Positions 6,607 to 64,000 of a stretch of 64,000 bases of DNA are shown piece by piece. Below the pieces are notes generated by a model. It made no database searches. It had not been told where the DNA came from and saw nothing but the letters and a program-made list of their open reading frames with translations. How positions within the stretch are numbered: position 1 is the first letter of the stretch; each line of letters starts with the position of its first letter. A program made the translations under genes and the position numbers. The stretch is taken from contig CAVLGW020000001.1 in assembly GCA_963669155.1 (NCBI GenBank), positions 32,501-96,500 on the forward strand. Reading direction: 5' to 3'. The DNA comes from Arbacia lixula (taxonomy: Eukaryota > Echinodermata > Echinoidea > Arbacioida > Arbaciidae).

Positions 6607-6712
6607 AGACTTACACATTTCTTAGTGATGCATTAAGAGGAGAAGACAGACATAAATGGACGAGTAACCACCTCACAGCACAAAGCAGTAAGAAGTCAGG
6701 GATAAAAGAGAT

Positions 6713-7305: not shown

Positions 7306-7361
7306 GTATTAGAGTACCACGACTGTGAGTGTGACTGTGACGTGGATTCGGCGTGTTTATT

Positions 7362-7730: not shown

Positions 7731-7887
7731 ATTGTATCATCCATCTGGGCGTGTCGCTATCGTGTATCGTATTGCTAGAAGCAGCTGTCAGTTACAATCA
7801 CTGGCTTGGCTATCTAAAACTCTCTATTGACATACTGAACGGAGATATAGACCGGGGTACAGTAAACAGCACAATGTAACTTCTTTT

Positions 7888-20572: not shown

Positions 20573-20608
<36 letters not shown>

Positions 20609-23139: not shown

Positions 23140-23488
23140 CGAGACATACTTGTGGACAAGTATCAGGTGGTCTGCATTGGCAAATTCATGCACAGACATG
23201 GGCTGGAAAATGCACGGTGAACTATAGACCTTCATTCGTGACACCAACTATCCATAAGCAATGTGAGACAGCGCTCAAGAAAGCTCATAGGGCACCTATT
23301 ATACTAAAATTTCAGAGAATTTCCTAAATGGTAACATGTTTATGCTAACGTGATTAATAGTCATGTAAGAGAATGGGGTGAGAGAAAAAAGAATTGGAAA
23401 GAAAATCTCAAAGAGAATGACAAAGTGAGGCATAGAACAGAAGAAGATGGCAAAATAAACATTGCAAAAGGAATGCAAAAGTTGACCC

Positions 23489-23560
23489 TACCCACGCCAG
23501 GAATCGAACCGGGGGCCTCGAGATCTTAAAACGGCGCCTTACCTATTGAGCCACAAATCT
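23489..23560 (-). other. tRNA-like block with Pol III A and B boxes (representative of 22 copies)
   Basis: On the minus strand: A box TGGCTCAATAGG (23542-23553) and perfect B box GGTTCGATTCC (23500-23510). In tRNA numbering the D stem pairs partly (GCTC with AGGC), position 33 is T, the anticodon position reads AAG and the T arm pairs 4 of 5. The anticodon stem and acceptor do not pair well, so it is a tRNA-derived SINE head and not a working tRNA. Further copies start at 25104, 26726, 29769, 31517, 33142, 34740, 36435, 38033, 39660, 41285, 42910, 44508, 46203, 47801, 49492, 51185, 52814, 55956, 57584, 62279 and 63897, each about 72 nt. Confidence 0.75.
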
Positions 23561-24331
23561 TCCCATTCACTTAACACGTAATGCCCAGCAGGGGCTAGAA
23601 TGATTAAGAAATCGATATTCAAGCTGAAATTTCACCATGATCCCGACATCTGATTAAAAAATGGAGACAACGTTCCGGAAAGCTCGTAGACTCAGCTACA
23701 ACATACTGAAATTTCAGAGTGAAAGCTTGACATATTAGTGAGATACATCTCCTAGAAGCTCGTCATGTCATTTCATAAATACCACTTCCATTGACATAAC
23801 ACGGAAGTGCGATTTTGACATTCATGCGTATAATGAAATTTACACCGTGAAGACGTCATCAAAATGAAAAATGAAGGCAACTCCTACTATGGAGCGAGGT
23901 CTCAGCTACAACATACTGAAATTTGGGAGAAAATTGACCATGAATTACTGAGATACACAAAAGCGGGTAAAAAAGTTCATGACGTCATACATGAAAAATC
24001 ATTTTTTCGATTCATATGGCAATATGATGACATCAACATAAATTTAAAAGGTAAATCGAACATTAAATCACATCTTCATTTCCCACTCTTTCAGAATATT
24101 GAAAAAAAATTGGGGGTCACCGGCCATTCTGAAGAGCTATGGCCGATTGAAGGTAGTCATGTTTTTTGCAATATTTGCACACAAAAACGTATTGACGCAC
24201 GCGCAGACTTTGAACTTTGACGCACCCGCACGACCTTGTTATTGCATGGAAATGGCTCAAAATGACAGGATGTGTTGTATGTAGTGTCAGTAACATGAAT
24301 CCAGTAAAAAAACGGAATTTTGACGTTTTGT

Positions 24332-24492
24332 TCGCGTTACGCACGAAAAAACGCGCGAACGCGCGCGCACGCGCGGAAATTTTTGAAATGCTAGAAATGG
24401 CCTGAAACATATGAAAAACAATTTTGAGTTGATTTGGAGCATTTTAAAATTTTGCGCGCGCGTTTTTGCACTAACGTACGCGTACGCGCGCG
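24332..24492. repeat. CG-rich imperfect inverted repeat (representative)
   Basis: The left arm has AAAAAACGCGCGAACGCGCG and the right arm CGTACGCGTACGCGCGCGTT, about 80 nt apart. They can pair over roughly 30-40 bp. Both are alternating purine-pyrimidine CG runs. Present in every complete unit, including diverged and truncated ones. Confidence 0.75.
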
Positions 24493-24613
24493 TTTTTTTT
24501 CAATGAAATTAATGAGATACTCATTAATTACAGGCATGTTAAATTTCATTACACAGAGATGACCAGTTCTATAGCTACATGAGGTAATAGTTTTTCATTA
24601 AACTGCTCGTAGA

Positions 24614-24641
24614 TGACGTCACGATGACGTCATGACCTTGA
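24614..24641 (+). promoter_or_regulatory. Paired CRE palindromes plus nuclear-receptor half-site (representative)
   Basis: TGACGTCA at 24614-24621, a 3-bp spacer CGA, TGACGTCA at 24625-24632, then immediately TGACCTTGA at 24633-24641, the reverse of TCAAGGTCA. TGACGTCA is the consensus bound by CREB/ATF bZIP dimers; TCAAGGTCA is the extended monomer site of ERR and NR5A receptors. Another TGACGTCA lies at 23980-23987 in the same unit. Binding is not shown. The arrangement recurs in most units; unit 2 has one site changed to TGAGGTCA. Confidence 0.5.
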
Positions 24642-24755
24642 AAATGTTGCTGTAACATGTTCACATATATGTCCATACATGATGAACATTTCATGAAATA
24701 TGGCTTATGCATTGTTGAGATATCCATGTCACAAAAATTTGGAATAAAAATAAAC

Positions 24756-26377
24756 GAGACATACTTGTGGACAAGTATCAGGTGGTCTGCATTGGCAAAT
24801 TCATGCACAGACATGGGCTGGAAAATGCACGGTGAACTATAGACCTTCATTCGTGACACCAACTATCCATAAGCAATGTGAGACAGCGCTCAAGAAAGCT
24901 CATAGGGCACCTATTATACTAAAATTTCAGAGAATTTCCTAAATGGTAACATGTTTATGCTAACGTGATTAATAGTCATGTAAGAGAATGGGGTGAGAGA
25001 AAAAAGAATTGGAAAGAAAATCTCAAAGAGAATGACAAAGTGAGGCATAGAACAGAAGAAGATGGCAAAATAAACATTGCAAAAGGAATGCAAAAGTTGA
25101 CCCTACCCACGCCAGGAATCGAACCGGGGGCCTCGAGATCTTAAAACGGCGCCTTACCTATTGAGCCACAAATCTTCCCATTCACTTAACACGTAATGCC
25201 CAGCAGGGGCTAGAATGATTAAGAAATCGATATTCAAGCTGAAATTTCACCATGATCCCGACATCTGATTAAAAAATGGAGATGACGTTTCGGAAAGCTC
25301 ATAGACTCAGCTACAACATACTGAAATTTCAGAGTGAAAGCTTGACATATTAGTGAGATACATCTCCTAGAAGCTCGTCATGTCATTTCATAAATACCAC
25401 TTCCATTGACATAACACGGAAGTGCGATTTTGACATTCATGCGTATAATGAAATTTACACCGTGAAGACGTCATCAAAATGAAAAATGAAGGCAACTCCT
25501 ACTATGGAGCGAGGTCTCAGCTACAACATACTGAAATTTGGGAGAAAATTGACCATGAATTACTGAGATACACAAAAGCGGGTAAAAAAGTTCATGACGT
25601 CATACATGAAAAATCATTTTTTCGATTCATATGGCAATATGATGACATCAACATAAATTTAAAAGGTAAATCGAACATTAAATCACATCTACATTTCCCA
25701 CTCTTTCAGAATATTGAAAAAAAATTGGGGGTCACCAGCCATTCTGAGGAGCTATGGCCGATTGAATGTAGTCATGTTTTTTGCAATATTTGCACACAAA
25801 AACGTATTGACGCACGCGCAGACTTTGAACTTTGACGCACCCGCACGACCTTGTTATTGCATGGAAATGGCTCAAAATGACAGGATGTGTTGTATGTAGT
25901 GTCAGTAACATGAATCCAGTAAAAAAACAGAATTTTGACGTTTTGTTCGCGTTACGCACGAAAAAACGCGCGAACGCGCGCGCACGCGCGGAAATTTTTG
26001 AAATGCTAGAAATGGCCTGAAACATATGCAAAACAATTTTGAGTTGATTTGGAGCATTTTAAAATTTTGCGCGCGCGTTTTTGCACTAACGTACGCGTAC
26101 GCGCGCGTTTTTTTTCAATGAAATTAATTAGCTACTCATTAATTATATGCATGTCAAATTTCATTACACAGAGATGACCAGTTCTAGAGCTACATGAGGT
26201 AATAGTTTTTCATTAAACTGCTCGTAGATGACGTCACGATGAGGTCATGACCTTGAAAATGTTGCTGTAACATGTTCACATATATGTCCATACATGATGA
26301 ACATTTCATGAAATATGGCTTATGCATTGTTGAGATATCCATGTCACAAAAATTTGGAATAAAAATAAATAAATAAC
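24756..26377 (+). repeat. Macrosatellite unit 2 (typical)
   Basis: 1,622 bp, very close to unit 1. tRNA-like block at 25104-25175. The second CRE is mutated (TGAGGTCA). Confidence 0.95.
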
Positions 26378-28011
26378 GAGACATACTTGTGGACAAGTAT
26401 CAGGTGGTCTGCATTGGCAAATTCATGCACAGACATGGGCTGGAAAATGCACGGTGAACTATAGACCTTCATTCGTGACACCAACTATCCATAAGCAATG
26501 TGAGACAGCGCTCAAGAAAGCTCATAGGGCACCTATTATACTAAAATTTCAGAGAATTTCCTAAATAGTAACATGTTTATGCTAACGTGATTAATAGTCA
26601 TGTAAGAGAATGGGGTGAGAGAAAAAAGAATTGGAAAGAAAATCTCAAAGAGAATGACAAAGTGAGGCATAGAACAGAAGAAGATGGCAAAATAAACATT
26701 GCAAAAGGAATGCAAAAGTTGACCCTACCCACGCCAGGAATCGAACCGGGGGCCTCGAGATCTTAAAACGGCGCCTTACCTATTGAGCCACAAATCTTCC
26801 CATTCACTTAACACGTAATGCCCAGCAGGGGCTAGAATGATTAAGAAATCGATATTCAAGCTGAAATTTCACCATGATCCCGACATCTGATTAAAAAATG
26901 GAGACGTTCCGGAAAGCTCGTAGACTCAGCTACAACATACTGAAATTTCAGAGTGAAAGCTTGACATATTAGTGAGATACATCTCCTAGAAGCTCGTCAT
27001 GTCATTTCATAAATACCACTTCCATTGACATAACACGGAAGTGCGATTTTGACATTCATGCGTATAATGAAATTTACACCGTGAAGACGTCATCAAAATG
27101 AAAAATGAAGGCAACTCCTACTATGGAGCGAGGTCTCAGCTACAACATACTGAAATTTGGGAGAAAATTGACCATGAATTACTGAGATACACAAAAGCGG
27201 GTAAAAAAGTTCATGACGTCATACATGAAAAATCATTTTTTCGATTCATATGGCAATATGATGACATCAACATAAATTTAAAAGGTAAATCGAACATTAA
27301 ATCACATCTTCATTTCCCACTCTTTCAGAATATTGAAAAAAAATTGGGGGTCACCGGCCATTCTGAAGAGCTATGGCCGATTGAAGGTAGTCATGTTTTT
27401 TGCAATATTTGCACACAAAAACGTATTGACGCACGCGCAGACTTTGAACTTTGACGCACCCGCACGACCTTGTTATTGCATGGAAATGGCTCAAAATGAC
27501 AGGATGTGTTGTATGTAGTGTCAGTAACATGAATCCAGTAAAAAAACAGAATTTTGACGTTTTGTTCGCGTTACGCACGAAAAAACGCGCGAACGCGCGC
27601 GCACGCGCGGGAATTTTTGAAATGCTAGAAATGGCCTGAAACATATGCAAAACAATTTTGAGTTGATTTGGAGCATTTTGAAATTTTGCGCGCGCGTTTT
27701 TGCACTAACGTACGCGTACGCGCGCGTTTTTTTTCAATGAAATCAATTAGCTACTCATTAATTATATGTATGTCAAATTTCATTACACAGAGATGACCAG
27801 TTCTAGAGCTACATGAGGTAATAGGTTTTCATTAAACTGCTCGTAGATGACGTCACGATGACGTCATGACCTTGAAAATGTTGCTGTAACATGTTCACAT
27901 ATATGTCCATACATGATGAACATTTCATGAAATATGGCTTATGCATTGTTGAGATATCCATGTCACAAAAATTTGGAATAAAAATAAATAAATAATAAAT
28001 AAATAAATAAC
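26378..28011 (+). repeat. Macrosatellite unit 3 (typical)
   Basis: 1,634 bp. tRNA-like block 26726-26797. The tail is lengthened by extra AAATA repeats. Confidence 0.95.
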
Positions 28012-29470
28012 GAGACATACTTGTGGACAAGTATAAGGTGGTCTGCATTGGCAAATTCATGCACTGGCATGGGCTGGTAAATGCACGTTCATAAAACATC
28101 ACCTTATTGAGCCACAAATCTTCGCATTCACTTTTCACGTACGTAATGCCCGCGAGCAGTGGCTAGAATGATTAAGAAATCGAAATTCAAGCTGAAATTT
28201 CACCATGATCCCGACATCTAATGAAAAAATCGAGACCACGTAGCCGAAAGCTCGGAGATTCAGCTACAACATACTCCATTTTCAGAGTGAAAGATCGTAA
28301 CATAGGAAAAGATATAGCTCCTGAAAGATTGACATGTCATTTAATGATTTAAAATAAATTACCCTCCCGTTGACATTACACGTGAAAACGTCTGATTCTG
28401 ACATTAATGCCTATAATCATATTTTTACCTTGAAGACTTTAACAAATTGAAAAGTTTAGGCAAGCCTGCCATAGAGCAATATCTTAGGCACAACATACTG
28501 AAATTTGGGAGAAAATTGACAAAGGATTACTGAGATATGCAAAAGCGGGTAAAAAAAATTATGACGTCATAATTGAAAATTCATTTTTTCGATTCATATG
28601 GCAATATGATGACGTCACCATGTACTTACCGGTAAAATGACACATGAAATGACATCTACATTTCATACTCTTTCCAAATGTTAAAAAAAATTGGGGTCAG
28701 CGGCCATTCTGAAGAGCTATGGCTGATTGAAGGTAGTCATGTTTTTTGCAATATTTGCACACAAAAACGTATTGACGCACGCGCAGACTTTGAACTTTGA
28801 CGCACCCGCACGACCTTGTTATTGCATGGAAATGGCTCAAAATGACAGGATGTGTTGTATGTAGTGTCAGTAACATGAATTTAGTAAAAAAACGGAATTT
28901 TGACGTTTTGCTTGCGTTACACACGGAAAAACGCGCGAACGCGCGCGCACGCGCGGAAATTTTTGAAATGCTTGAAATTGCCTGAAACATATGCAAAACA
29001 ATTTTGAGTTGATTCTGAGCATTTTAAAATTTTGCCCGCGTGTTTTTGCACTAACGTACGCGTACGCGCGCGTTTTTATTTATTGAGATTGATTGGCTTA
29101 TCATTAAATTTATGCATGTTAATTTTCATTACATATCAATGATTGGTTCAAGAGATATATCCAATAATCGATTTTCATTAAATTGCTCGTAGATGACGTC
29201 ACGATGACGTCATGACCTTGAAAATGTTGCTGAAACATGTTCACGTACATACCCATGCATGATGAAGATTTCATGAAAAATGGCCCATGCATTGAAGAGA
29301 TATCCATGCCACAAAAATTAGGAATAAAAATAAATAAATAATAATAATAAATAAAGAAAGAAAAATCGGACAAAAACAAGAGGTGATCTGCCATGGCATG
29401 GCAGACCACCTAATAAAGAAAGAAAATTCGAACGAAAACAAAAGGTGATCTGCATGGCAGACCACCTAAC
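28012..29470 (+). repeat. Macrosatellite unit 4 (5'-deleted type)
   Basis: 1,459 bp. A deletion after the first ~80 bp removes the SINE-like body and the B-box half of the tRNA-like block; only the A-box side (TTATTGAGCCACA) remains. The middle is diverged. Two hairpin modules close the unit (about 29350-29468). Confidence 0.93.
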
Positions 29471-31168
29471 GAGACATACTTGTGGACAAGTATAAGCTGG
29501 ACTATAGACCTTCATTCGTAACACCATCTATCCATAAGCAATGTGAGACATCGCTCAAGAAAGCTCATAGGGCACCTATTATACTAAAATTTCAGAGAAT
29601 TTCCTAAATGGTAACATGTTTATGCTAACGTGATTAATAGTCATGTAAGAGAATGGGGTGAGAGAAAAAAGAATTGGAAAGAAAATCTCAAAGAGAATGA
29701 CAAAGTGAGGCATAGAACAGAAGAAGATGGCAAAATAAACATTGCAAAAGGAATGCAAAAGTTGACCCTACCCACGCCAGGAATCGAACCGGGGGCCTCG
29801 AGATCTTAAAACGGCGCCTTACCTATTGAGCCACAAATCTTCCCATTCACTTAACACGTAATGCCCAGCAGGGGCTAGAATGATTAAGAAATCGATATTC
29901 AAGCTGAAATTTCACCATGATCCCGACATCTGATTAAAAAATGGAGACAACGTTCCGGAAAGCTCGTAGACTCAGCTACAACATACTGAAATTTCAGAGT
30001 GAAAGCTTGACATATTAGTGAGATACATCTCCTAGAAGCTCGTCATGTCATTTCATAAATACCACTTCCATTGACATAACACGGAAGTGCGATTTTGACA
30101 TTCATGCGTATAATGAAATTTACACCGTGAAGACGTCATCAAAATGAAAAATGAAGGCAACTCCTACCATGGAGCGAGGTCTCAGCTACAACATACTGAA
30201 ATTTGGGAGAAAATTGACCATGAATTACTGAGATACACAAAAGCGGGTAAAAAAGTTCATGACGTCATACATGAAAAATCATTTTTTCGATTCATATGGC
30301 AATATGATGACATCAACATAAATTTAAAAGGTAAATCGAACATTAAATCACATCTACATTTCCCACTCTTTCAGAATATTGAAAAAAAATTGGGGGTCAC
30401 CGGCCATTCTGAAGAGCTATGGCCGATTGAAGGTAGTCATGTTTTTTGCAATATTTGCACACAAAAACGTATTGACGCACGCGCAGACTTTGAACTTTGA
30501 CGCACCCGCACGACCTTGTTATTGCATGGAAATGGCTCAAAATGACAGGATGTGTTGTATGTAGTGTCAGTAACATGAATCCAGTAAAAAAACAGAATTT
30601 TGACGTTTTGTTCGCGTTACGCACGAAAAAACGCGCGAACGCGCGCGCACGCGCGGAAATTTTTGAAATGCTAGAAATGGCCTGAAACATATGCAAAACA
30701 ATTTTGAGTTGATTTAGAGCATTTTAAAATTTTGCGCGCGCGTTTTTGCACTAACGTACGCGTACGCGCGCGTTTTTTTTCAATGAAATTAATTAGCTAC
30801 TCATTAATTATATGCATGTCAAATTTCATTACACAGAGATGACCAGTTCTAGAGCTACATGAGGTAATAGTTTTTCATTAAACTGCTCGTAGATGACGTC
30901 ACGATGACGTCATGACCTTGAAAATGTTGCTGTAACATGTTCACATATATGTCCATACATGATGAACATTTCATGAAATATGGCTTATGCATTGTTGAGA
31001 TATCCATGTCACAAAAATTTGGAATAAAAATAAATAAATAAATAATAAAGAAAGAAAATTCTAACGAAATTAAGAGGTGATCTGTCGTTGGCGACAGACC
31101 ACCTAATAAAGAAAGAAAATTCTAACGAAATTAAGAGGTGATCTGTCGTTGGCGACAGACCACCTAAC
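29471..31168 (+). repeat. Macrosatellite unit 5 (typical, small start deletion)
   Basis: 1,698 bp. A short segment after the junction palindrome is missing, including AGGTGGTCTGC. tRNA-like block 29769-29840. Two hairpin modules at the end (about 31046-31165). Confidence 0.93.
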
Positions 31169-32783
31169 GAGACATACTTGTGGACAAGTATCAGGTGGTC
31201 TGCATTGGCAAATTCATGCACAGACATGGGCTGGAAAATGCACGGTGAACTATAGACCTTCATTCGTGACACCAACTATCCATAAGCAATGTGAGACAGC
31301 GCTCAAGAAAGCTCATAGGGCACCTATTATACTAAAATTTCAGAGAATTTCCAAAATGGTAACATGTTTATGCTAACGTGATTAATAGTCATGTAAGAGA
31401 ATGGGGTGAGAGAAAAAAGAATTGGAAAGAAAATCTCAAAGAGAATGACAAAGTGAGGCATAGAACAGAAGAAGATGGCAAAATAAACATTGCAAAAGGA
31501 ATGCAAAAGTTGACCCTACCCACGCCAGGAATCGAACCGGGGGCCTCGAGATCTTAAAACGGCGCCTTACCTATTGAGCCACAAATCTTCCCATTCACTT
31601 AACACGTAATGCCCAGCAGGGGCTAGAATGATTAAGAAATCGATATTCAAGCTGAAATTTCACCATGATCCCGACATCTGATTAAAAAATGGAGACAACG
31701 TTCCGGAAAGCTCGTAGACTCAGCTACAACATACTGAAATTTCAGAGTGAAAGCTTGACATATTAGTGAGATACATCTCCTAGAAGCTCGTCATGTCATT
31801 TCATAAATACCACTTCCATTGACATAACACGGAAGTGCGATTTTGACATTCATGCGTATAATGAAATTTACACCGTGAAGACGTCATCAAAATGAAAAAT
31901 GAAGGCAACTCCTACTATGGAGCGAGGTCTCAGCTACAACATACTGAAATTTGGGAGAAAATTGACCATGAATTACTGAGATACACAAAAGCGGGTAAAA
32001 AAGTTCATGACGTCATACATGAAAAATCATTTTTTCGATTCATATGGCAATATGATGACATCAACATAAATTTAAAAGGTAAATCGAACATTAAATCACA
32101 TCTACATTTCCCACTCTTTCAGAATATTGAAAAAAAATTGGAGGTCACCGGCCATTCTGAAGAGCTATGGCCGATTGAAGGAAGTCATGTTTTTTGCAAT
32201 ATTTGCACACAAAAACGTATTGACGCACGCGCAGACTTTGAACTTTGACGCACCCGCACGACCTTGTTATTGCATGGAAATGGCTCAAAATGACAGGATG
32301 TGTTGTATGTAGTGTCAGTAACATGAATCCAGTAAAAAAACAGAATTTTGACGTTTTGTTCGCGTTACGCACGAAAAAACGCGCGAACGCGCGCGCACGC
32401 GCGGAAATTTTTGAAATGCTAGAAATGGCCTGAAACATATGCAAAACAATTTTGAGTTGATTTGGAGCATTTTAAAATTTTGCGCGCGCGTTTTTGCACT
32501 AACGTACGCGTACGCGCGCGTTTTTTTTCAATGAAATTAATAAGCTACTCATTAATTATATGCATGTCAAATTTCATTACACAGAGATGACCAGTTCTAG
32601 AGCTACATGAGGTAATAGTTTTTCATTAAACTGCTCGTAGATGACGTCACGATGACGTCATGACCTTGAAAATGTTGCTGTAACATGTTCACATATATGT
32701 CCATACATGATGAACATTTCATGAAATATGGCCTATGCGTTGTTGAGATATCCATGTCACAAAAATTTGGAATAAAAATAAAC
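31169..32783 (+). repeat. Macrosatellite unit 6 (typical; first unit of duplicated block)
   Basis: 1,615 bp. tRNA-like block 31517-31588. Shares private variants with unit 12 (for example TTTCCAAAATGG, GGAGGTCACC), 9,768 bp away. Confidence 0.95.
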
Positions 32784-34392
32784 GAGACATACTTGTGGAC
32801 AAGTATAAGGTGGTCTGCATTGGCAAATTCATGCACTGACATGGGCTAGAAAATGCACGGTGATATGGACCTTCAATCGTGACACCATCTATTCATAAGC
32901 AATCAGAGACTCCGCTCAAGAAAGCTCAGAGCGCACCTACAATGTCTACTAACGTACATTTCAGAGACATGCCTAAACGGTTACATGTATATTGTGCTAA
33001 CATGTAATTAATAGCCACGTAAGATAAAGGGGCGAGAGAAAACGAATGGGAAAGAAAATCTCAAAGAGAATGACAAAGTGAGGGATAGAACAGAAGAAGA
33101 TGGCAAAAAAAACATTGTAAAAGGAATGCAAAAATGTACCCTACCCACTCCAGGGATCGAACTGGGGGCCTCGAGATCTTAAAACGGCGCCTTACCCATT
33201 GAGCCACACATCTTCCCATTCACTTAACACGTAGTGCCCAGCAGAGGCTAGAATGATTAAGAAATTGATATTCAAGATGAAATTTCGCCATGATCGCGAC
33301 ATCTGATTAAAAAATAAAGATGACTCAGCTACAACATACCAAAATTTCAGAGTAACAGAATTGAACATAAGCGAGATACAGCTCCTAGAAGATCGTCATG
33401 TCATTTAATAAATACCCCTTCCATTGACATAACACGTACATACGATCGATTTTGACATTAATGTCTATAATCAAATTTATACCATGAAGATGGAATCCTA
33501 TTGAAATATTAGGGCTAATTTCTCATAGAGCAATGTCTCAGCTATCACATACTGAAATTTGGAACAAAATTGACCAAAGATTACTGAGATACGCAAGAAC
33601 GGGTAAAAAAGTTTATGAAGTCATACATGAAAATTGATTTTTTCGATTCATATGGCAATATGATGACGTCACGATGTATTTAACGATCAAATGATACATG
33701 AAATAGCATCTACAGTTCTCACTCTTTCAACATATGAAAAAAAAATTGGGGGTCACCAGCCATTCTGAGGAGCTATGGCCGATTGAAGGTGGTCATGTTT
33801 TTTGCAATATTTGCACACAAAAACGTATTGACGCACGCGCGGACTTTGAACTTTGACGCACCAGCACGACCTTATTATTGCATGGAAATGGCTCAAAATT
33901 TCAGGATGTGTTGTTTGCAGTGTCAGAAACATGAATCCATTGAAAAAAACGGTTTTCCGACGTTGCGTTTGCTAAACGCACGGAAAAACGCGCGCGCGCG
34001 CGCGTACGCGCGGAAATTTGAAAAATGCTAGAAATGGCCTGAAACATATGCAAAACAATTTCTAGTTGATTTTGAGCATTTTTTTATTTTACGCGCGCGT
34101 TAATGCACTAACGTACGCGTACGCGCGCTTTTTTTTTCATTGAAATTAATTGTCTTGTCATTAATTATATACATGCCAAATTTCATTACACAGAGATGAA
34201 CGGTTTTAGAGCTACATGAAATAATAGATTTTCATTAAATTGCTCGTGCATGACGTCACGATTACGTAATGACCTTGAAAATGTTCCTGTTACATGTTCA
34301 CATATATACCTATACATGATGAACATTTGATGAAACATGGTCCATGCATTGTTGAGATATCCATGTCACAAAAAATAGGAATAAAAATAAAC
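32784..34392 (+). repeat. Macrosatellite unit 7 (diverged type)
   Basis: 1,609 bp. Many substitutions in the middle. The tRNA-like block (33142-33213) has an altered B box and the second CRE reads TTACGTAA. Duplicate of unit 13. Confidence 0.93.
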
Positions 34393-36076
34393 GAGACATA
34401 CTTGTGGACAAGTATAAGGTGGTCTGCATTGGCAAATTTGTGCACAGACATGGTATGGTAAATGCACGGTGAACTTTAGACCTTCAATCGTGGCACCATC
34501 TATTCATAAGCAATGTGAGACACCGCTCAAGAAAGCTCATAGGGCACCTATTATACTAACATTTCAAAGACTTTCCTAAATGGTTACATGTTTATGCTAA
34601 CGTGATTAATAGTCATGTAAGAGAATAGGGCGAGAGAAAAAGAATTGGTAAGAAAATCTCAAAGAGAATGACGAAGTGAGGGATAGAACAGAAGAAAATG
34701 ACAAAATAAACATTGCAAAAGGAATGCAAAAGTTGACCCTACCCACGCCAGGAATCGAACCGGGGGCCTCGAGATCTTAAAACGGCGCCTTACCCATTGA
34801 GCCACACATCTTCCCATTCACTTAACACGTAATGCCCAGCAGGTGCGAGAATGATTAAGAAATCGATATTCAAGCTGAAATTTCACCATGATCCCGGCAT
34901 CTGATTAAAAAATAGAGCACACGTTTCCAAAAGCTAGTAGACTCAGCTACAACATACTAAAATTTCAGAGTAACAGAATTGAACATCAGCGAGATATAGC
35001 TCCTAGAAGGTCGTCATGTCATTTCATAGATACCCCTTCCATTGACATAACACGTACATGCGTCCGATTATGACACCAATACGTATAATGAAATTTACAC
35101 CATGAAGACGTCATCAAAATGACAAATGAACGAACGTTATCTATAGAAGAAGGTCTCAGCTACAACATAGTGAAATTTTGGAGAAAATTGATCAAGGATT
35201 ACTGAGATATGCAAAAGCGGGTAAAAAAGTTCATGACGTCATAATTGAAAATTCATTTTTTCGATTCACATGGCAATATGATGACGTCACGATGTACTTA
35301 CTGCTAAAAAGTCACATGAAATGACATCTACATTATATATTCTTTCCAAATATTAAAAAAAAATTGGGGGTCACCGGCCATTCTGAAGAGCTATGGCCGA
35401 TTGAAGGTAGTCATGTTTTTTGCAACATTTGCACACAAAAACGTACTGACGCACGCGCAGACTTTGAACTTTGACGTACCCGCACGACCTTGTTATTGCA
35501 TGGAAATTGCTCAAAATTGCAGGATGTGTTGTTTGTAGTGTCAGAGACATGAAACTAGTAGAAAAATGGAATTTTGAGGCTGCGTACGCGTAACGCACGA
35601 AAAAACGCGCGAACGCGCGCGCATGCGCGGAAATTTTTGAAATGCTTGAAATGGCCTGAAACATATGCAAAACAATTTTGAGTTGATTTGGAGCATTTTA
35701 AAATTTTGCGCGCGCGTTTTTGCACTAACGTACGCGTACGCGCGCGTTTTTATGTATTGAAAATAATTGTGTTATCATTAAATTTATGCATATCAATTTT
35801 CATGAGCTATAAATTATTGGTTCTAGAGCTACATGAGGTAATAGGTTTTCATTAAACTGCTCGTAGATGACGTCATGATGACGTCATGACCTTGAAAAAG
35901 TTACAATGACAAGTTCACATGTATACCTATACATGGTCAAAATATGGTGTAACATAACATACGCATTGTTGAGATATAGATGACACAAAAACATGGGGTG
36001 CAAAAAATAAAAATAAAGAAAGAAAATTCGGGCGAAATTAAAAGGTGATCTGTCGGTGCACGACAGACCACCTAAC
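34393..36076 (+). repeat. Macrosatellite unit 8 (second diverged type)
   Basis: 1,684 bp. tRNA-like block 34740-34811. One hairpin module with a changed loop (TCGGTGCACGA). Both CREs intact with a TGA spacer. Duplicate of unit 14. Confidence 0.93.
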
Positions 36077-52465: not shown

Positions 52466-54219
52466 GAGACATACTTGTGGACAAGTATCAGGTGGTCTGC
52501 ATTGGCAAATTCATGCACAGACATGGGCTGGAAAATGCACGGTGAACTATAGACCTTCATTCGTGACACCAACTATCCATAAGCAATGTGAGACAGCGCT
52601 CAAGAAAGCTCATAGGGCACCTATTATACTAAAATTTCAGAGAATTTCCTAAATGGTAACATGTTTATGCTAACGTGATTAATAGTCATGTAAGAGAATG
52701 GGGTGAGAGAAAAAAGAATTGGAAAGAAAATCTCAAAGAGAATGACAAAGTGAGGCATAGAACAGAAGAAGATGGCAAAATAAACATTGCAAAAGGAATG
52801 CAAAAGTTGACCCTACCCACGCCAGGAATCGAACCGGGGGCCTCGAGATCTTAAAACGGCGCCTTACCTATTGAGCCACAAATCTTCCCATTCACTTAAC
52901 ACGTAATGCCCAGCAGGGGCTAGAATGATTAAGAAATCGATATTCAAGCTGAAATTTCACCATGATCCCGACATCTGATTAAAAAATGGAGACAACGTTC
53001 CGGAAAGCTCGTAGACTCAGCTACAACATACTGAAATTTCAGAGTGAAAGCTTGACATATTAGTGAGATACATCTCCTAGAAGCTCGTCATGTCATTTCA
53101 TAAATACCACTTCCATTGACATAACACGGAAGTGCGATTTTGACATTCATGCGTATAATGAAATTTACACCGTGAAGACGTCATCAAAATGAAAAATGAA
53201 GGCAACTCCTACTATGGAGCGAGGTCTCAGCTACAACATACTGAAATTTGGGAGAAAATTGACCATGAATTACTGAGATACACAAAAGCGGGTAAAAAAG
53301 TTCATGACGTCATACATGAAAAATCATTTTTTCGATTCATATGGCAATATGATGACATCAACATAAATTTAAAAGGTAAATCGAACATTAAATCACATCT
53401 ACATTTCCCACTCTTTCAGAATATTGAAAAAAAATTGGGGGTCACCGGCCATTCTGAAGAGCTATGGCCGATTGAAGGTAGTCATGTTTTTTGCAATATT
53501 TGCACACAAAAACGTATTGACGCACGCGCAGACTTTGAACTTTGACGCACCCGCACGACCTTGTTATTGCATGGAAATGGCTCAAAATGACAGGATGTGT
53601 TGTATGTAGTGTCAGTAACATGAATCCAGTAAAAAAACAGAATTTTGACGTTTTGTTCGCGTTACGCACGAAAAAACGCGCGAACGCGCGCGCACGCGCG
53701 GAAATTTTTGAAATGCTAGAAATGGCCTGAAACATATGCAAAACAATTTTGAGTTGATTTGGAGCATTTTAAAATTTTGCGCGCGCGTTTTTGCACTAAC
53801 GTACGCGTACGCGCGCGTTTTTTTTCAATGAAATTAATTAGCTACTCATTAATTATATGCATGTTAAATTTCATTACACAGAGATGACCAGTTCTAGAGC
53901 TACATGAGGTAATAGTTTTTCATTAAACTGCTCGTAGATGACGTCACGATGACGTCATGACCTTGAAAATGTTGCTGTAACATGTTCACATATATGTCCA
54001 TACATGATGAACATTTCATGAAATATGGCTTATGCATTGTTGAGATATCCATGTCACAAAAATTTGGAATAAAAATAAATAAATAAATAATAAAGAAAGA
54101 AAATTCTAACGAAATTAAGAGGTGATCTGTCGTTGGCGACAGACCACCTAATAAAGAAAGAAAATTCTAACGAAATTAAGAGGTGATCTGTCGTTGGCGA
54201 CAGACCACCTAATAATAAC
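52466..54219 (+). repeat. Macrosatellite unit 19 (typical, long tail)
   Basis: 1,754 bp. tRNA-like block 52814-52885. Two hairpin modules (about 54090-54210). Confidence 0.95.
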
Positions 54220-55612
54220 GAGACATACTTGTGGACAAGTATAAGGTGGTCTGCATTGGCAAATTCATGCACTGGCATGGGCTGGTAAATGAACGTTCTT
54301 AAAACATCGCCTTACCCATTGAGCCACAAATCTTCGCATTCACTTTTCACGTAATGCCCGCTAACAGTGGCTAGAATGATTTAGAAATCGATATTCAAGC
54401 TGAAATTTTGCCATGATCCCGATATCTAATGAAAAAATGGAGACCACATGGCTGAAAGCTACTAGATTCAGCTACAAAATACTAAAATTTCAGAGTAAAA
54501 GATCGTAACATCGGAAAAGATATAGCTCCTGAAAGAGTGCCATGTCATTTCATGATTTCAAATAAATGACCCTCCCATTGACATTACACGTAAAAACGTC
54601 TGATTCTAACATTAATGCCTATAATCATATTTTCACCTTGAAGACGTTAACAAATTGAAAAGTTAAGGCAAGCCTGCCATAGAGCAATGTCTAAGGCACA
54701 TCATACTGAATTTTGGGAGAAAATTTAAAAAGGAATACTGAGATATGCAAAAGCGGGAAAAAAAATTATGACGTCATAATTGAAAATTCATTTTTTCGAT
54801 TCATATGGCAATATGATGACGTCACCATGTACTTACCGGTAAAATGACACATGAAATGACATCTACATTTCATACTCTTTCCAAATATAAAAAAAAATTG
54901 GGGGTCAGCGGCCATTCTGAAGAGCTATGGCCGATTGAGGGTTGTCATGTTTTTTGCAATATTTGCACACAAAAACGTATTGACGCACGCGCAGACTTTG
55001 AACTTTGACGCACCCGCACGACCTTGTTATTGCATGGAAATGGCTCAAAATGACAGGATGTGTTGTATGTAGTGTCAGTAACATGAATCCAGTAAAAAAA
55101 CGGAATTTTGACGTTTTGTTTGCGTTACGCACGGAAAAACGCGCGAACGCGCGCGCACGCGCGGAAATTTTTGAAATGCTTGAAATTGCCTAAAACATAT
55201 GCAAAACAATTTTAAGTTGATTTAGAGCATTTTGAAATTTTGCGCGCGCGTTTTTGCACTAACGTACGCGTACGCGCGCGTTTTTATTTATTAAGATTGA
55301 TTGGCTTATCATTAATTTCATGCATGTCAAATTTCATTACATATCAATGATTGGTTCAAGAGAAATATCCAATAATCGATTTTCATTAAATTGCTCGTAG
55401 ATGACGTCATGATGACGTCATGACCTTGAAAATGTTGCTGAAACATGTTCACGTACATGTTCATGCATGATGAAGATTTCATGAAAAATGGATCATGCAT
55501 TGAAGAGATATCCATGCCACAAAAATTAGGAATAAAAATAAATAAATAATAATAATAAAGAAAGAAAAATCGGACGAAAACAAGAGGTGATCTGCATGGC
55601 AGACCACCTAAC
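54220..55612 (+). repeat. Macrosatellite unit 20 (5'-deleted type)
   Basis: 1,393 bp, the shortest unit. Same deletion as unit 4, leaving only the A-box side of the tRNA-like block. One hairpin module at the end. CRE pair with a TGA spacer. Confidence 0.93.
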
Positions 55613-57236
55613 GAGACATACTTGTGGACAAGTATCAGGTGGTCTGCATTGGCAAATTCATGCACAGACATGGGCTGGAAAATGCACGGTGAACTATAGA
55701 CCTTCATTCGTGACACCATCTATCCATAAGCAATGTGAGACTGAAGAAAGCTCATAGGGCACCTATTTTACTAACATTTCAGAGAATTTCCTAAATGGTA
55801 ACATGTTTATGCTAACGTGATTAATAGTCATGTAAGAGAATGGGGCGAGAGAAAAAAGAATTGGAAAGAAAATCTCAAAGAGAATGACAAAGTGAGGGAT
55901 AGAACAGAAGAAGATGGCAAAATAAACATTGCAAAAGGAATGCAAAAGTTGACCCTACCCACGCCAGGAATCGAACCGGGGGCCTCGAGATCTTAAAACG
56001 GCGCCTTACCTATTGAGCCACAAATCTTCCCATTCACTTAACACGTAATGCCCAGCAGGGGCTAGAATGATTAAGAAATCGATATTCAAGCTGAAATTTC
56101 ACCATGATCCCGACATCTGATTATAAAATGGAGACAACGTCTCGGAAAGCTCGTAGACTCAGCTACAACATACTGAAATTTCAGAGTGAAAGCTTGACAT
56201 ATTAGTGAGATACATCTCCTAGAAGCTCGTCATGTCATTTCATAAATACCACTTCCATTGACATAACACGGAAGTGCGATTTTGACATTCATGCGTATAA
56301 TGAAATTTACACCGTGAAGACGTCATCAAAATGAAAAATGAAGGCAACTCCTACCATGGAGCGAGGTCTCAGCTACAACATACTGAAATTTGGGAGAAAA
56401 TTGACCATGGATTACTGAGATACACAAAAGCGGGTAAAAAAGTTCATGACGTCATACAGGAAAAATCATTTTTTCGATTCATATGGCAATATGATGACAT
56501 CAACATAAATTTAAAAGGTAAATCGAACATTAAATCACATCTACATTTCCCACTCTTTTAGAATATTGAGAAAAAATTGGGGGTCACCAGCCATTCTGAA
56601 GAGCTATGGCCGATTGAAGGTAGTCATGTTTTTTTACTATATTTGCACACAAAAACGTATTGATGCACGCGCAGACTTTGAACTTTGACGCACCCGCACG
56701 ACCTTGTTATTGCATGGAAATGGCTCAAAATGACAGGATGTGTTGTATGTAGTGTCAGTAACATGAATCCAGTAAAAAAAACGGAATTTTGACGTTTTGT
56801 TCGCGTTACGCACGGAAAAACGCGCGAACGCGCGCGTACGCGCGGAAATTTTAGAAATGCTAGAAATGGCCTGAAACATATGCAAAACAATTTTGAGTTG
56901 ATTTGGAGCATTTTAAAATTTTGCGCGCGCGTTTTTGCACTAACGTACGCGTACGCGCGCGTTTTTTTTCAATGAAATTAATTAGCTACTCATTAATTAT
57001 ATGCATGCCAAATTTCATTACACAGAAATGACCAGTTCTACAGCTACATGAGATAATAGATTTTCATTTAATTGCTCGTAGATGACGTCACGATGACGTC
57101 ATGACCTTGAAAATGTTGCTGGAACATGTTCACGTATATAGCAATGCATGAATAAGATTTCATGAAAAATTGCCCATGCAATGTTGAGATATCAATGCCA
57201 CAAAAATTAGGAATAAAAATAAATAAATAAATAAAC
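55613..57236 (+). repeat. Macrosatellite unit 21 (typical variant)
   Basis: 1,624 bp. tRNA-like block 55956-56027. Its second half matches the second half of unit 16. Confidence 0.94.
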
Positions 57237-59005
57237 GAGACATACTTGTGGACAAGTATCAGGTGGTCTGCATTGGCAAATTCATGCACAGACATGGGCT
57301 GGAAAATGCACGGTGAACTATAGACCTTCATTCGTGACACCAACTATCCATAAGCAATGTGAGACAGCGCTCAAGAAAGCTCATAGGGCACCTATTATAC
57401 TAACATTTCAGAGAATTTCCTAAATGGTAACATGTTTATGCTAACGTGATTAATAGTCATGTAAGAGAATGGGGCGAGAGAAAACAATTTGGAAAGAAAA
57501 TCTCAAAGAGAATGACAAAGTGAGGGATAGAACAGAAGAAGATGGCAAAATAAACATTGCAAAAGGAATGCAAAAGTTGACCCTACCCACGCCAGGAATC
57601 GAACCGGGGGCCTCGAGATCTTAAAACGGCGCCTTACCTATTGAGCCACAAATCTTCCCATTCACTTAACACGTAATGCACAGCAGGGGCTAGAATGATT
57701 AAGAAATCGATATTCAAGCTGAAATTTCACCATGATCCAGACATCTGATTAAAAAATGGAGACAACATCCGGGAAAGCTCGTAGACTCAGCTACAACATA
57801 CTGAAATTTCAGAGTGAAAGCTTGACATATTAGTGAGATACATCTCCTAGAAGCTCGTCATGTCATTTCATAAATACCACTTCCATTGACATAACACGGA
57901 AGTGCGATTTTGACATTCATGCGTATAATGAAATTTACACCGTGAAGACGTCATCAAAATGAAAAATGAAGGCAACTCCTACCATGGAGCGAGGTCTCAG
58001 CTACAACATACTGAAATTTGGGAGAAAATTGACCATGGATTACTGAGATACACAAAAGCGGGTAAAAAAGTTCATGACGTCATACAGGAAAAATCATTTT
58101 TTCGATTCATATGGCAATATGATGACATCAACATAAATTTAAAAGGTAAATCGAACATTAAATCACATCTACATTTCCCACTCTTTCAGAATATTGAAAA
58201 AAAATTGGGGGTCACCAGCCATTCTGAAGAGCTATGGCCGATTGAAGGTAGTCATGTTTTTTGCAATATTTGCACACAAAAACGTATTGACGCACGCGCA
58301 GACTTTGAACTTTGACGCATTTGCACGACCTTGTTATTGCATGGAAATGGCTCAAAATGACAGGATGTGTTGTATGTAGTGTCAGTAACATGACTCCAGT
58401 AAAAAAACCGAATTTTGACGTTTTGTTCGCGTTACGCACGGAAAAACGCGCGAACGCGCGCGCACGCGCGGAAATTTTTGAAATGCTAGAAATGGCCTTA
58501 AACATATGCAAAACAATTTTGAGTTGACTTGGAGCATTTTAAAACTTTGCGCGCGCGTTTTTGCACTAACGTACGCGTACGCGCGCGTTTTTATTTATTG
58601 AAATTATAGGTATAATCATTAAATTTATGCATGTCAATTTTCATTTGCTATAAATGATTGGTTCTAGAGATACATGAGATAATAGATTTTCATTAAACTG
58701 CTCGTAGATGACGTCACGATGACGTCATGACCTTGAAAATGTTGCTGGAACATGTTTACGTATATACCCATGCATGATGAAGATTTGATGAAAAACGGCC
58801 CATGCATCGTTGAGATATCCATGCCACAAAAATTTGGAATAAAAATAAATAAATAATAAATAAATAAATAAATAAATAAAGAAAGAAAAATCGGACGAAA
58901 ACAAAAGGTGATCTGCATGGCAGACCACCTAATAAAGAAAGAAAGAAAATTCGGACAAACACAAGAGGTGATCTGCCATGGCATGGCAGACCACCTAATA
59001 ATAAC
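57237..59005 (+). repeat. Macrosatellite unit 22 (longest)
   Basis: 1,769 bp. tRNA-like block 57584-57655. Long AAATA tail and two hairpin modules with different loops (about 58880-58992). Confidence 0.94.
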
Positions 59006-60523
59006 GAGACATACTTGTGGACAAGTATAAGGTGGTCTGCATTGGCAAATTTGTGCACAGACATGGTATGGTAAATGCACGGCGACACCATCATCTTTCA
59101 ATGGTGACACCATCTATTTATTAGAAATCAGAGGCAACGCTCAAGAAAACTCATAAAGCCACATACAATATACTAACATTTCAGAGACTTGACAAAATTA
59201 CACCTTACATTGACATAACACGTACATGCGTCGTTTATGACACTAATGCGAATAATGAAATTTACACCATGAGGACATCAACAAAATGACAATTGAAGGA
59301 AATTCTTCTATAAAAGAAGGTCTCAGCTACAACATAGTGAAATTTGGGAGGAAATTGACCAAGGATTACTGAGATATGCAAAAGCGGGTGAAAAAATTCA
59401 TGACGTCATAATTGAAAATTCATTTTTTTATTCATATGGCAATATGATGACGTCACGATGTACTTACGGGTAAAATGACACATGAAATCACATTAACATT
59501 TCATACTCTTTCCAAATTTAAAAAAAAAACTGGGGGTCATCGGCCATTCTAAAGAGCTATGGCCGATTGAAGGTAGTCATGTTTTTTGCAATATTTGCAC
59601 ACAAAAACGTATTGACGCACGCGCAGACTTTCAACTTTGACGTACCCGCAAGACCTTGTTATTGCATGGAAATGGCTCAAAATTGCAGGATGTTATGCTT
59701 GTAGTGTCAGAAACATAAAACTAGTGTAAAAGCGGAATTTCGAGGCTGCGTACGCGTAACGCACTAAAAAACGCGCGAACGCGCGCGCACGCGCGGAAAT
59801 TTTTGAAATGCTCAAAATGGCCTAAAACATATGCAAAACAATTTTGAGTTGATTTGGAGCATTTTAAAATTTTGCGCGCGCATTTTTGCGCTAACGCACG
59901 CGTACGCGCGCGTTTTTATTCATTAAAATTAATTGTCACATCACTAACTTCATGCATGTCAAATTTAATAACATATAAATGATTGGTTTCAGAGATATAT
60001 CCAATAATGGATTTTCATTAAATTGCTCGTAGATGACGTCACGATGACGTCATGACCTTGAAAATGTTGTTGGAACATGTTCACATACATACCCATACAT
60101 GGTGTAGATTTCATGAAAAATGGCACATGCATTGTTGAGATATCCATGCCACAAAATTTTGGAATAAAAATAAATAAATAATAAAGAAAGAAAAATCGGA
60201 CAAAAACAAGAGGTGATCTGCCATGGCATGGCAGACCACCTAATAATAAAGAAAGAAAATTCGGACGAAAACAAAAGGTGATCTGCATGGCAGACCACCT
60301 AATAAATAATAAATAAATAAATAAAGAAAGAAAATTCTAACGAAATTAAGAGGTGATCTGTCGTTGGCGACAGACCACCTAATAAATAAATAAATAATAA
60401 AGAAAGAAAATTCTAACGAAATTAAGAGGTGATCTGTCGTTGGCGACAGACCACCTAATAAAGAAAGAAAATTCTAACGAAATTAAGAGGTGATCTGTCG
60501 TTGGCGACAGACCACCTAATAAC
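59006..60523 (+). repeat. Macrosatellite unit 23 (strongly deleted, five modules)
   Basis: 1,518 bp. Lacks the whole tRNA-like block; a deletion joins the start region to the middle near 59190. The tail holds five hairpin modules (about 60180-60518) of three loop types. Confidence 0.92.
60180..60518 (+). repeat. Five tandem hairpin modules
   Basis: Each module reads ATAAAGAAAGAAAA, about 20 bp, then AGGTGATCTG … CAGACCACCT. The first has loop type CCATGGCATGG, the second CATGG and the last three TCGTTGGCGA. The stem ends vary in step with each other, so pairing is kept. Confidence 0.85.
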
Positions 60524-61930
60524 GAGACATACTTGTGGACAAGTATAAGGTGGTCTGCATTGGCAAATTCATGCACTGGCATGGGCTGGTAAATGAACGT
60601 TCTTAAAACATCGCCTTACCCATTGAGCCACAAATCTTCGCATTCACTTTTCACGTAATGCCCGCTAGCAGTGGCTAGAATGATTTAGAAATCGATATTC
60701 AAGCTGAAATTTTGCCATGATCCCGATATCTAATGAAAAAATGGAGACCATATGGCCGAAAGCTACTAGATTCAGCCACAACATACTAAAATTTCAGAGT
60801 GAAAGATCGTAACATAGGAAAAGATAAAGCTCCTGAAAGATTGCCATGTTACTTCATGATTTCGAATAAATGACCCTCCCATTGACATTACACGTGAAAA
60901 CGTGTGATTCTGATTTTAATGCCTATAATCATATTTTCACCTTGAAGACGTTAACGAATTGAAAAGTTAGGGCAAGCCTGCCACAGAGCAATGTCCTAGG
61001 CACAACATACTGAAATTTGGGAGAAAATTGACAAAGTATTACTGAGATATGCAAAAGCGGGTAAAAAAGTTCATGACGTCATAATTGAAAATTCATTTTT
61101 TCGATTCATATGGCAATATGATGACGTCACCATGTACTTACTGGTAAAATGACACATGAAATGACATCTACATTTCATACTCTTTCCAAATATTAAAAAA
61201 AAATTGGGGGTCACCGGCCATTCTGAGGAGCTATAGCCGATTGAAGGCAGTCATGTTTTTTGCAATATTTGCACACAAAAACGTATTGACGCACGCGCAG
61301 ACTTTGAACTTTGACGCACCCGCACGACCTTGTTATTGCATGGAAATGGCTCAAAATGACAGGATGTGTTGTATGTAGTGTCAGTAACATGAATGCAGTA
61401 AAAAAAACGGAATTTTGACGTTCTATTCGCGTTACGCACGGAAAAACGCGCGAACGCGCGCGCACGCGCGGAAATTTGTGAAATGCTAAAAATGGCCTAA
61501 AACATATGCAAAACAATTTTGAGTTGATTTGGAGCATTTTAAAATTTTGCGCGCGCGTTTTTGCACTAACGTACGCGTACGCGCGCGCTTTTATTTATTG
61601 AAATTACTTGTATTATTATTAGATTTATGTATGTCAATTTTCATTAGCTATAAATGATTGGTTCTAGAGCTACATGAGGTAATAGGTTTTCATTAAACTG
61701 CTCGTAGATGACGTCACGATGACGTCATGACCTTAAAAATGTTGCTGGAACATGTTCACGTACATATTCATGCATGATGAAAATTTCATGAAAAATGGCT
61801 CATGCATTGTTGACATATCCATGCCACAAAAATTTGGAATAAAAATAAATAAATAAATAAATAAAGAAATAAAGAAAGAAAATTCGGACAAACACAAGAG
61901 GTGATCTGCATGGCAGACCACCTAATAAAC
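60524..61930 (+). repeat. Macrosatellite unit 24 (5'-deleted type)
   Basis: 1,407 bp. Same deletion as units 4 and 20, with no B box. One hairpin module (about 61863-61923). Confidence 0.93.
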
Positions 61931-63548
61931 GAGACATACTTGTGGACAAGTATCAGGTGGTCTGCATTGGCAAATTCATGCACAGACATGGGCTGGAAAA
62001 TGCACGGTGAACTATAGACCTTCATTCGTGACACCAACTATCCATAAGCAATGTGAGACAGCGCTCAAGAAAGCTCATAGGGCACCTATTATACTAAAAT
62101 TTCAGAGAATTTCCTAAATGGTAACATGTTTATGCTAACGTGATTAATAGTCATGTAAGAGAATGGGGTGAGAGAAAAAAGAATTGGAAAGAAAATCTCA
62201 AAGAGAATGACAAAGTGAGGCATAGAACAGAAGAAGATGGCAAAATAAACATTGCAAAAGGAATGCAAAAGTTGACCCTACCCACGCCAGGAATCGAACC
62301 GGGGGCCTCGAGATCTTAAAACGGCGCCTTACCTATTGAGCCACAAATCTTCCCATTCACTTAACACGTAATGCCCAGCAGGGGCTAGAATGATTAAGAA
62401 ATCGATATTCAAGCTGAAATTTCACCATGATCCCGACATCTGATTAAAAAATGGAGACAACGTTCCGGAAAGCTCGTAGACTCAGCTACAACATACTGAA
62501 ATTTCAGAGTGAAAGCTTGACATATTAGTGAGATACATCTCCTAGAAGCTCGTCATGTCATTTCATAAATACCACTTCCATTGACATAACACGGAAGTGC
62601 GATTTTGACATTCATGCGTATAATGAAATTTACACCGTGAAGACGTCATCAAAATGAAAAATGAAGGCAACTCCTACTATGGAGCGAGGTCTCAGCTACA
62701 ACATACTGAAATTTGGGAGAAAATTGACCATGAATTACTGAGATACACAAAAGCGGGTAAAAAAGTTCATGACGTCATACATGAAAAATCATTTTTTCAA
62801 TTCATATGGCAATATGATGACATCAACATAAATTTAAAAGGTAAATCGAACATTAAATCACATCTACATTTCCCACTCTTTCAGAATATTGAAAAAAAAT
62901 TGGGGGTCACCGGCCATTCTGAAGAGCTATGGCCGATTGAAGGTAGTCATGTTTTTTGCAATATTTGCACACAAAAACGTATTGACGCACGCGCAGACTT
63001 TGAACTTTGACGCACCCGCACGACCTTGTTATTGCATGGAAATGGCTCAAAATGACAGGATGTGTTGTATGTAGTGTCAGTAACATGAATCCAGTAAAAA
63101 AACAGAATTTTGACGTTTTGTTCGCGTTACGCACGAAAAAACGCGCGAACGCGCGCGCACGCGCGGAAATTTTTGAAATGCTGGAAATGGCCTGAAACAT
63201 ATGCAAAACAATTTTGAGTTGATTTGGAGCATTTTAAAATTTTGCGCGCGCGTTTTTGCACTAACGTACGCGTACGCGCGCGTTTTTTTTCAATGAAATT
63301 AATTAGCTACTCATTAATTATATGCATGTCAAATTTCATTACACAGAGATGACCAGTTCTAGAGCTACATGAGGTAATAGTTTTTCATTAAACTGCTCGT
63401 AGATGACGTCACGATGACGTCATGACCTTGAAAATGTTGCTGTAACATGTTCACATATATGTCCATACATGATGAACATTTCATGAAATATGGCCTATGC
63501 ATTGTTGAGATATCCATGTCACAAAAATTTGGAATAAAAATAAATAAC
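61931..63548 (+). repeat. Macrosatellite unit 25 (typical)
   Basis: 1,618 bp, almost identical to unit 1. tRNA-like block 62279-62350. Confidence 0.95.
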
Positions 63549-64000
63549 GAGACATACTTGTGGACAAGTATCAGGTGGTCTGCATTGGCAAATTCATGCA
63601 CAGACATGGGCTGGAAAATGCACGGTGAACTATAGACCTTCATTCGTGACACCAACTATCCATAAGCAATGTGAGACAGCGCTCAAGAAAGCTAATAGGG
63701 CACCTATTATATTAAAATTTCAGAGAATTTCCTAAATGGTAACATGTTTATGCTAACGTGATTAATAGTCATGTAAGAGAATGGGGTGAGAGAAAAAAGA
63801 ATTGGAAAGAAAATCTCAAAGAGAATGACAAAGTGAGGCATAGAACAGAAGAAGATGGCAAAATAAACATTGCAAAAGGAATGCAAAAGTTGACCCTACC
63901 CACGCCAGGAATCGAACCGGGGGCCTCGAGATCTTAAAACGGCGCCTTACCTATTGAGCCACAAATCTTCCCATTCACTTAACACGTAATGCCCAGCAGG
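63549..64000 (+). repeat. Macrosatellite unit 26 (partial, cut by window edge)
   Basis: The first 452 bp of a typical unit, including a tRNA-like block at 63897-63968. Confidence 0.95.

Follow-up and report, generated by a model that had tools for sequence, protein, structure and literature searches.

The array and its units

The window analysed here is a 64,000 nt stretch of the Arbacia lixula genome, C23:32,501-96,500, where C23 denotes contig CAVLGW020000001.1 (595,521 bp), one of the 590 contigs of the 607 Mb genome searched; positions given without the C23 prefix are counted from the first base of the window. From 23,139 onwards the window is filled to its end by a tandem array of units of about 1.6 kb (Table 1). 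Each unit is very probably a HINE, a non-autonomous Helentron, which would have originated from a 25 kb autonomous Helentron, an endonuclease-type rolling-circle transposon. Taking the first base of CGAGAC as the start of a unit, there are 26 starts, all on the plus strand, representing 25 units and one cut by the window end, and the first 24 nt are free of mismatches at every one of them. The initial annotation had described a macrosatellite of 25 complete units plus a partial one in a single orientation, and both orientation and count are borne out. Completeness holds for most units, with five found to lack sequence present in the reference unit: ~300 bp of the head is missing from units 28011, 54219 and 60523, ~450 bp from unit 59005, and ~50 bp near the start from unit 29470. 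Identity between the reference unit and the rest of the array ranges from 85 to 100 %. The array continues beyond the window, with 71 right ends on the plus strand of C23:32501-215300 and none on the minus strand.

At the outer edge of the array, host sequence adjoins the first unit directly, and the upstream paralogous copy has GGTGTGAAAAATG at 21329-21341, in keeping with an A|A target. The left flank contains a 1.7 kb tandem duplication (19612-21336 and 21418-23138, 94.6 % identity), the second copy of which stops where the array starts; the first 76 bp of the spacer between the copies are a dispersed repeat.

Table 1. Coordinates and strands of array features within the window
Feature	Position	Strand	Details
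Array edge	23133..23139		host GTGTGAA adjoins CGAGAC
Tandem array of HINE units	23139..64000	minus (Helentron 5′ to 3′ sense)	extends past the window
Right (3′) end of outermost unit	23140..23163	minus	CGAGAC, then palindrome ATACTTG-TGGA-CAAGTAT
Unit starts, first part	23140, 24755, 26377, 28011, 29470, 31168, 32783, 34392, 36076	plus
Unit starts, second part	37689, 39311, 40936, 42551, 44160, 45844, 47457, 49143, 50836	plus
Unit starts, third part	52465, 54219, 55612, 57236, 59005, 60523, 61930, 63548	plus
Two consecutive left (5′) ends	31043..31167	minus	palindromic AGGTGATCTG...CAGACCACCT segments
Five-unit block, copy 1	31168..39310	plus	higher-order duplication
Five-unit block, copy 2	40936..49079	plus	shifted by 9,768 bp from copy 1
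Five stacked left ends	60158..60522	minus	three hairpin types: c, b, a, a, a
Reference unit for comparisons	61,929-63,546	minus	1,618 bp, start to start
Subterminal inverted repeat, right-end side	61955..61964		AGGTGGTCTG; partner is CAGACCACCT at left ends
B box, reference unit	62290..62300	minus	GGTTCGATTCC
A box, reference unit	62332..62343	minus	TGGCTCAATAGG

Unit ends and target site

The unit has sharp ends, which are flanked by A|A (T|T in the complementary strand), an 18 nt palindrome six bases from one end, and inverted repeats in subterminal position. This corresponds to the HINE layout given in the parts of Thomas et al. 2014 (PMC4067079) drawn on here, where the inverted repeat adjoins the 5′ end and is set further inwards at the 3′ end, a palindrome being placed between it and the terminus, and the target is TT. 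Read along the minus strand, the unit begins with TTAGGTGGTCTG, a palindromic segment (ending in CAGACCACCTAA on the plus strand) that is followed by an AAT/AAAT-type tract, and closes with ACCT, ATACTTGTCCACAAGTAT and GTCTCG, in that order. The Helentron palindrome is ATACTTGTCCACAAGTAT, six bases from the 3′ end, and shows no mismatch at any of the 26 unit starts of the window. Among 47 units that differ from the reference by more than 8 %, the 24 nt of the right end are perfect in 42, with 1.8 expected, these units being preselected for five or fewer mismatches in the right end and not mutually independent. With regard to the inverted repeats, the autonomous element pairs AGGTGGTCTGTC at its right end with GACAGACCACCT at its left end over 12 bp, as read from the sequence. 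Helentrons and HINEs are characterised by such repeats, 11 bp or longer, near both ends, and 11 bp is the figure by which PMC4067079 names families; the 10 bp repeat of the young 1.6 kb unit (AGGTGGTCTG) is one below this figure.

In C23:32501-215300, AA precedes all 71 right ends and A follows all 57 left ends, and a comparison of an intact with an interrupted left-end segment revealed no target duplication. Judged from these flanks, insertion appears to occur between two Ts and without target duplication, as is characteristic of Helentrons and HINEs. Three loci (L004, L005 and L024) hold a solitary unit with non-array DNA on either side.

An autonomous Helentron partner

The 25 kb autonomous Helentron lies between right ends 71,722 and 96,717, and harbours a single open frame of 3,278 aa on the plus strand. 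A domain search of this frame, performed as two halves, identified Herpes_teg_N, OTU (5.9e-9), DUF6570, Helitron_like_N (4.5e-35), PIF1 (2.2e-29) and Exo_endo_phos (4.1e-12), as well as a PHD match under its cut-off. The Rep stretch contains an HIH motif and matches the solved Helraiser 7lcc (2.2e-7). Thus, Rep and helicase are fused to an AP-type endonuclease in one open frame, which is the Helentron arrangement, and the OTU-type cysteine protease that is frequent in Helentrons is also present. The frame runs opposite to the Helentron sense; a reversed Rep/helicase frame is known in one D. ananassae Helentron (passages of PMC4067079), and reversed frames in further elements are described in sections of PMC5148889.

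Two autonomous copies, at C23:104222-129216 and from C23:167788, are located inside the array downstream of the window. The second, starting at 135,288, is 99.76 % identical to the first over an initial 7,929 bp; their upstream junctions differ, and the same HINE subtype comes next in both. Across the genome, there are 43 matches to Helitron_like_N, 42 of which are stop-free in the matched stretch and 16 of which have a frame of exactly 3,278 aa. The equal length of these 16 open frames suggests that the autonomous Helentron was recently active.

The unit can be aligned to this element in two parts, with positions 215-577 showing 86 % identity to its right side and positions 674-1618 showing 82 % identity to its far side. 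By this comparison the 1.6 kb unit is an internal-deletion derivative of the autonomous Helentron. It is non-autonomous and shares its ends with an autonomous Helentron of the same genome, as a HINE does.

Dispersal across the genome

A 35 nt right-end pattern gave 1,890 matches genome-wide (split 989 to 901 between the strands), with none for the control pattern. Amongst the 100 of these matches listed, from C1 and part of C2, 64 are in clusters, and all 52 neighbour pairs less than 4 kb apart are on the same strand, with 0.87 such pairs given by random placing. The satellite description in the initial annotation is sound as far as it goes, but it missed the identity of the unit: a mobile, non-autonomous Helentron that is found genome-wide as solitary copies and as arrays.

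Growth of the array

We propose that the units are moved by the Helentron protein via a rolling-circle intermediate, with HINEs being mobilised in trans by the 25 kb autonomous Helentron, both ends of which they retain. New copies would insert preferentially between two Ts. On the plus strand, the tract that adjoins the element's 5′ end consists of (AAT/AAAT)n, and it would offer TT on the minus strand only, such that insertion into it would keep the orientation of the array and split the 5′ hairpin of the host copy from its body. Repeated insertion would give an array on a single strand whose units all retain a 3′ end, with around half of the junctions lacking a 5′ end and others carrying stacked ones. 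Unequal exchange would afterwards duplicate and scramble blocks, and transposition of composites with several 5′ ends, as proposed in sections of PMC5148889, would add further stacked left ends. Self-insertion is probably the main source of the tandem copies, and the array is most likely a Helentron-derived, self-extending macrosatellite grown by T|T self-insertion in its own strand-asymmetric AAT/AAAT tract.

Of the 70 junctions between units on C23, 36 have no left end, 20 have a left end and a short tract, and 14 are exact; expressed as left ends per junction, there are none at 36, one at 19, two at nine, three at five and five at one. Insertion into another copy's tract at a minus-strand TT would explain the missing left ends, the stacked left ends and the single orientation. 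In the window, the second of the two consecutive left ends joins the next right end exactly (CACCTAA|CGAGAC), and microsatellite remnants separate the five stacked left ends. At C23:209,929, the left-end segment of one copy is broken by the right end of a second, and its remainder resumes, without duplication, immediately behind the left end of the inserted copy. Exact half-junction patterns occur 10 (left) and six (right) times genome-wide, and two pair at a distance of 1.2-1.4 kb, on C23 and C7, the C7 pair being identified from pattern matches. At locus L021, bodies A and o6 are followed by left ends x and a, which is a nested order.

A number of observations weigh against self-insertion as the principal route. 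Under strict nesting, stacked left ends should match the still-open units in mirror order; a stack test for this was not significant (15 of 31 matched, 13.4 in shuffles, P 0.33), with a still-open unit lacking for another 16 stacked left ends. One left and one right half-junction on C41 are 20 kb apart, and the rest are unpaired. Right and left ends are unequal in number on C23 (71 and 57), whilst small arrays are richer in left ends (three right and seven left at L019, four and six at L020), and the idea that the two must balance within every array was dropped. A-type bodies have an a-type left end next in 29 of 35 cases rather than in all, the 14 exact end-to-end junctions are also compatible with rolling-circle concatemers, and the far boundary of the array was not found among the 40 of 418 candidates scored. 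Separately, at the left end at 4567 of L020, the T-motif of a unit runs straight into a left-end segment of type c with the usual tract missing, which is probably a deletion or recombination joint.

Ordinary satellite evolution, in which a few founders spread mainly by unequal crossing-over and slippage, would be a different source of the copies, and is in our view unlikely to be the chief one. The two copies of the five-unit block align over 8,144 bp at 99.58 % identity, and the repetition of 8.1 kb at this level shows that unequal exchange has taken place; left-end segments in places have an exact 61 bp period, and the non-significant nesting test speaks for the same route. Crossing-over alone, however, fails to explain solitary copies and clusters with the same ends on many chromosomes, or the A|A flanks, or right ends within the left-end segments of other copies.

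Improbable, to a greater degree, is the insertion of ready-made arrays as rolling-circle concatemers, whereby a circular or run-on intermediate gives several units at once. Bypassed termination is thought to produce tandem Helitron arrays (passages of PMC4067079), and the exact joints CACCTAA|CGAGAC at 14 of the 70 C23 junctions speak for this route. Against this, the 36 junctions without a left end are joined at varying points of the T-motif or microsatellite, and adjacent units may differ by ~15 % or be of different classes. The published truncated-template model (Xiong et al., as related in parts of PMC12628747) gives many 5′ ends and one 3′ end, in contrast to the 3′ end per unit seen here.

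As for autonomous copies within arrays, the far side was viewed for 15 of the 16 with the 3,278-aa frame (two on C23 and 13 others), of which 12 were readable, and in all 12 the autonomous tail is followed by the right (3′) end of another copy and never by its own 5′ hairpin. The same 40 nt tail stands ahead of this junction in 10 of the 12 (nine identical and one with one substitution). The unit that follows belongs to a subtype without the right-side inverted repeat in eight cases, is a HINE with the repeat in three, and is an autonomous copy in one. In seven of the eight cases, the subtype without the repeat has a 5′ hairpin directly after it. This subtype also occurs without an autonomous neighbour (e.g. 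at 29,470), and its right end therefore seems usable on its own. On C42 (loci L050 and L052), an autonomous tail is joined straight to an autonomous right end, i.e. autonomous copies are arranged head to tail. Autonomous copies may move as composites, borrowing the 5′ end of a HINE and reading through the HINE 3′ end. More broadly, one may picture a transposon bearing the very target that it prefers, a microsatellite with TT on one strand only, so that each insertion adds a fresh, orientation-locked target and positive feedback leads to a self-extending satellite into which autonomous copies are drawn; we advance this fuller scheme tentatively, and hold the balance to be somewhat against it.

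The tRNA-like block

A tRNA-like block is situated 360-414 bp inside the right end of the unit and is oriented toward that end. As the initial annotation had noted, most units carry it on the minus strand with perfect A and B boxes (18 of 26 in the window). The B box is lost in units 28011, 54219, 59005 and 60523, and mutated in units 32783, 37689, 42551 and 47457. Since all copies are homologous, the boxes represent one event multiplied and not 18 independent ones. In short interspersed nuclear elements (SINEs) derived from tRNAs, A and B boxes follow the usual order. The order is alike here, but a tRNA fold was not found: folding of the block is poorer than that of shuffles (z +2.36) and gives no cloverleaf.

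The initial annotation had seen in these boxes a potential RNA polymerase III (Pol III) promoter in each unit, from which unit-length or readthrough RNAs antisense to the repeat direction could arise. The view that this promoter is what the satellite is for finds no support. On such a reading, functional A and B boxes would yield small antisense transcripts or attract TFIIIC, and the repeat would be retained for that reason; this we consider very doubtful. Beyond the intact boxes of the window, the block pattern has 769 matches genome-wide (control 0), and, amongst the 60 of these listed, all are the unit's own block. Moreover, 24 units more than 8 % diverged have a perfect B box in 17 cases, with 5.3 expected, and their divergence is 3.4 % in the B box, 8.3 % in the A box, 5.4 % in the rest of the block and 12.9 % in the body. 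The rest of the block is, however, also less diverged than the body, and the A box stands at 8.3 %, so that there is no box-specific constraint; conservation at box sites is not much better than in the rest of the block, and the units are not independent. Eight of the 26 window units lack a perfect pair, and in the autonomous copy that was compared the boxes are degraded, the B box by a single mismatch and the A box by inserted bases that make it longer. At 19 nt beyond the B box, the minus strand has a TTTT run (62270-62267), which would make a short transcript likelier than a unit-length one. The block would have arrived with the 3′ subterminal region of the autonomous element and been carried along thereafter, and from its sequence it looks like a passenger. 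It would matter only if transcribed.

Other identities for the block or unit were rejected. For a tRNA gene cluster, or membership of tRNA genes or tRNA-type SINEs, the tRNA fold is absent, ARAGORN found no tRNA in the window, Rfam gave no family at gathering score in the window, and one unit scanned at relaxed Rfam thresholds returned three weak bacterial families and no tRNA. An independent SINE within the unit is contradicted by deleted units in which the A-box half remains and the B-box half is gone, i.e. deletions rather than empty sites, and the 60 matches listed, out of 769, revealed no other carrier. An rRNA-like or gene-coding unit was set aside, with the recurrent 127-aa frame of young units lying in a Helentron deletion derivative. 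A limited literature search found no paper joining Helentrons with tRNA-type promoters.

Other features of the window

Outside the array, 11106-11885 holds direct and inverted copies (96-97 %) with tRNA-type promoter boxes of another sequence, noted by eye, in which ARAGORN found no tRNA; these are perhaps a separate SINE. Two 0.6 kb copies at 6712-7309 and 7887-8476 (92.8 %) each contain a long imperfect palindrome, and CGCGTCCTAATG minisatellites are present in the same region. A 243-codon frame at 9852-10583 on the minus strand has several membrane-like segments and no family in a Pfam scan, and is possibly a receptor-gene exon. Finally, 14041-15072 is taken up by 1 kb of GGT-type repeat that is strongly GC-skewed.

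Comparison with known systems

The system most closely resembles the Helentrons, HINEs and DINE-1 elements treated by Thomas et al. 2014 (PMC4067079). Amongst the features described in the parts of that paper used here, it shares the Rep/helicase with a C-terminal endonuclease, the OTU protease, subterminal inverted repeats, the 3′ palindrome, the TT target, an internal microsatellite and non-autonomous partners, as well as a reversed frame as in D. ananassae. It departs from the elements in those passages in its long same-strand arrays enclosing autonomous copies, its left ends that are stacked or missing, and the tRNA-like block in the 3′ subterminal region.

A second likeness is to FoHeli, a Helitron2-like element of Fusarium oxysporum, for which, according to sections of PMC5148889, self-insertion was proposed to produce nested copies with multiple 5′ termini and one 3′ terminus, and which also has reversed frames. 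FoHeli, as presented there, concerns a few cases, whereas here hundreds to thousands of copies are involved at the scale of arrays, and 5′ ends are lost at about half of the C23 junctions.

Truncated plant Helitrons (Xiong et al. 2016, as related in parts of PMC12628747) likewise show Helitron-type elements forming satellite-like arrays. Those arrays possess many 5′ ends and one 3′ end, and are ascribed to truncated rolling-circle templates; in A. lixula, by contrast, a 3′ end is found at every unit start and 5′ ends are fewer (71 right against 57 left on C23). The routes from transposon to satellite discussed for Helitrons in the same parts of PMC12628747 are rolling-circle concatemers and the expansion of inner repeats. 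To these the present array would add a third, sequence-testable route, self-insertion into a strand-asymmetric tract, the junction signatures of which (kept 3′ ends, lost or stacked 5′ ends and one orientation) can be searched for in other genomes.

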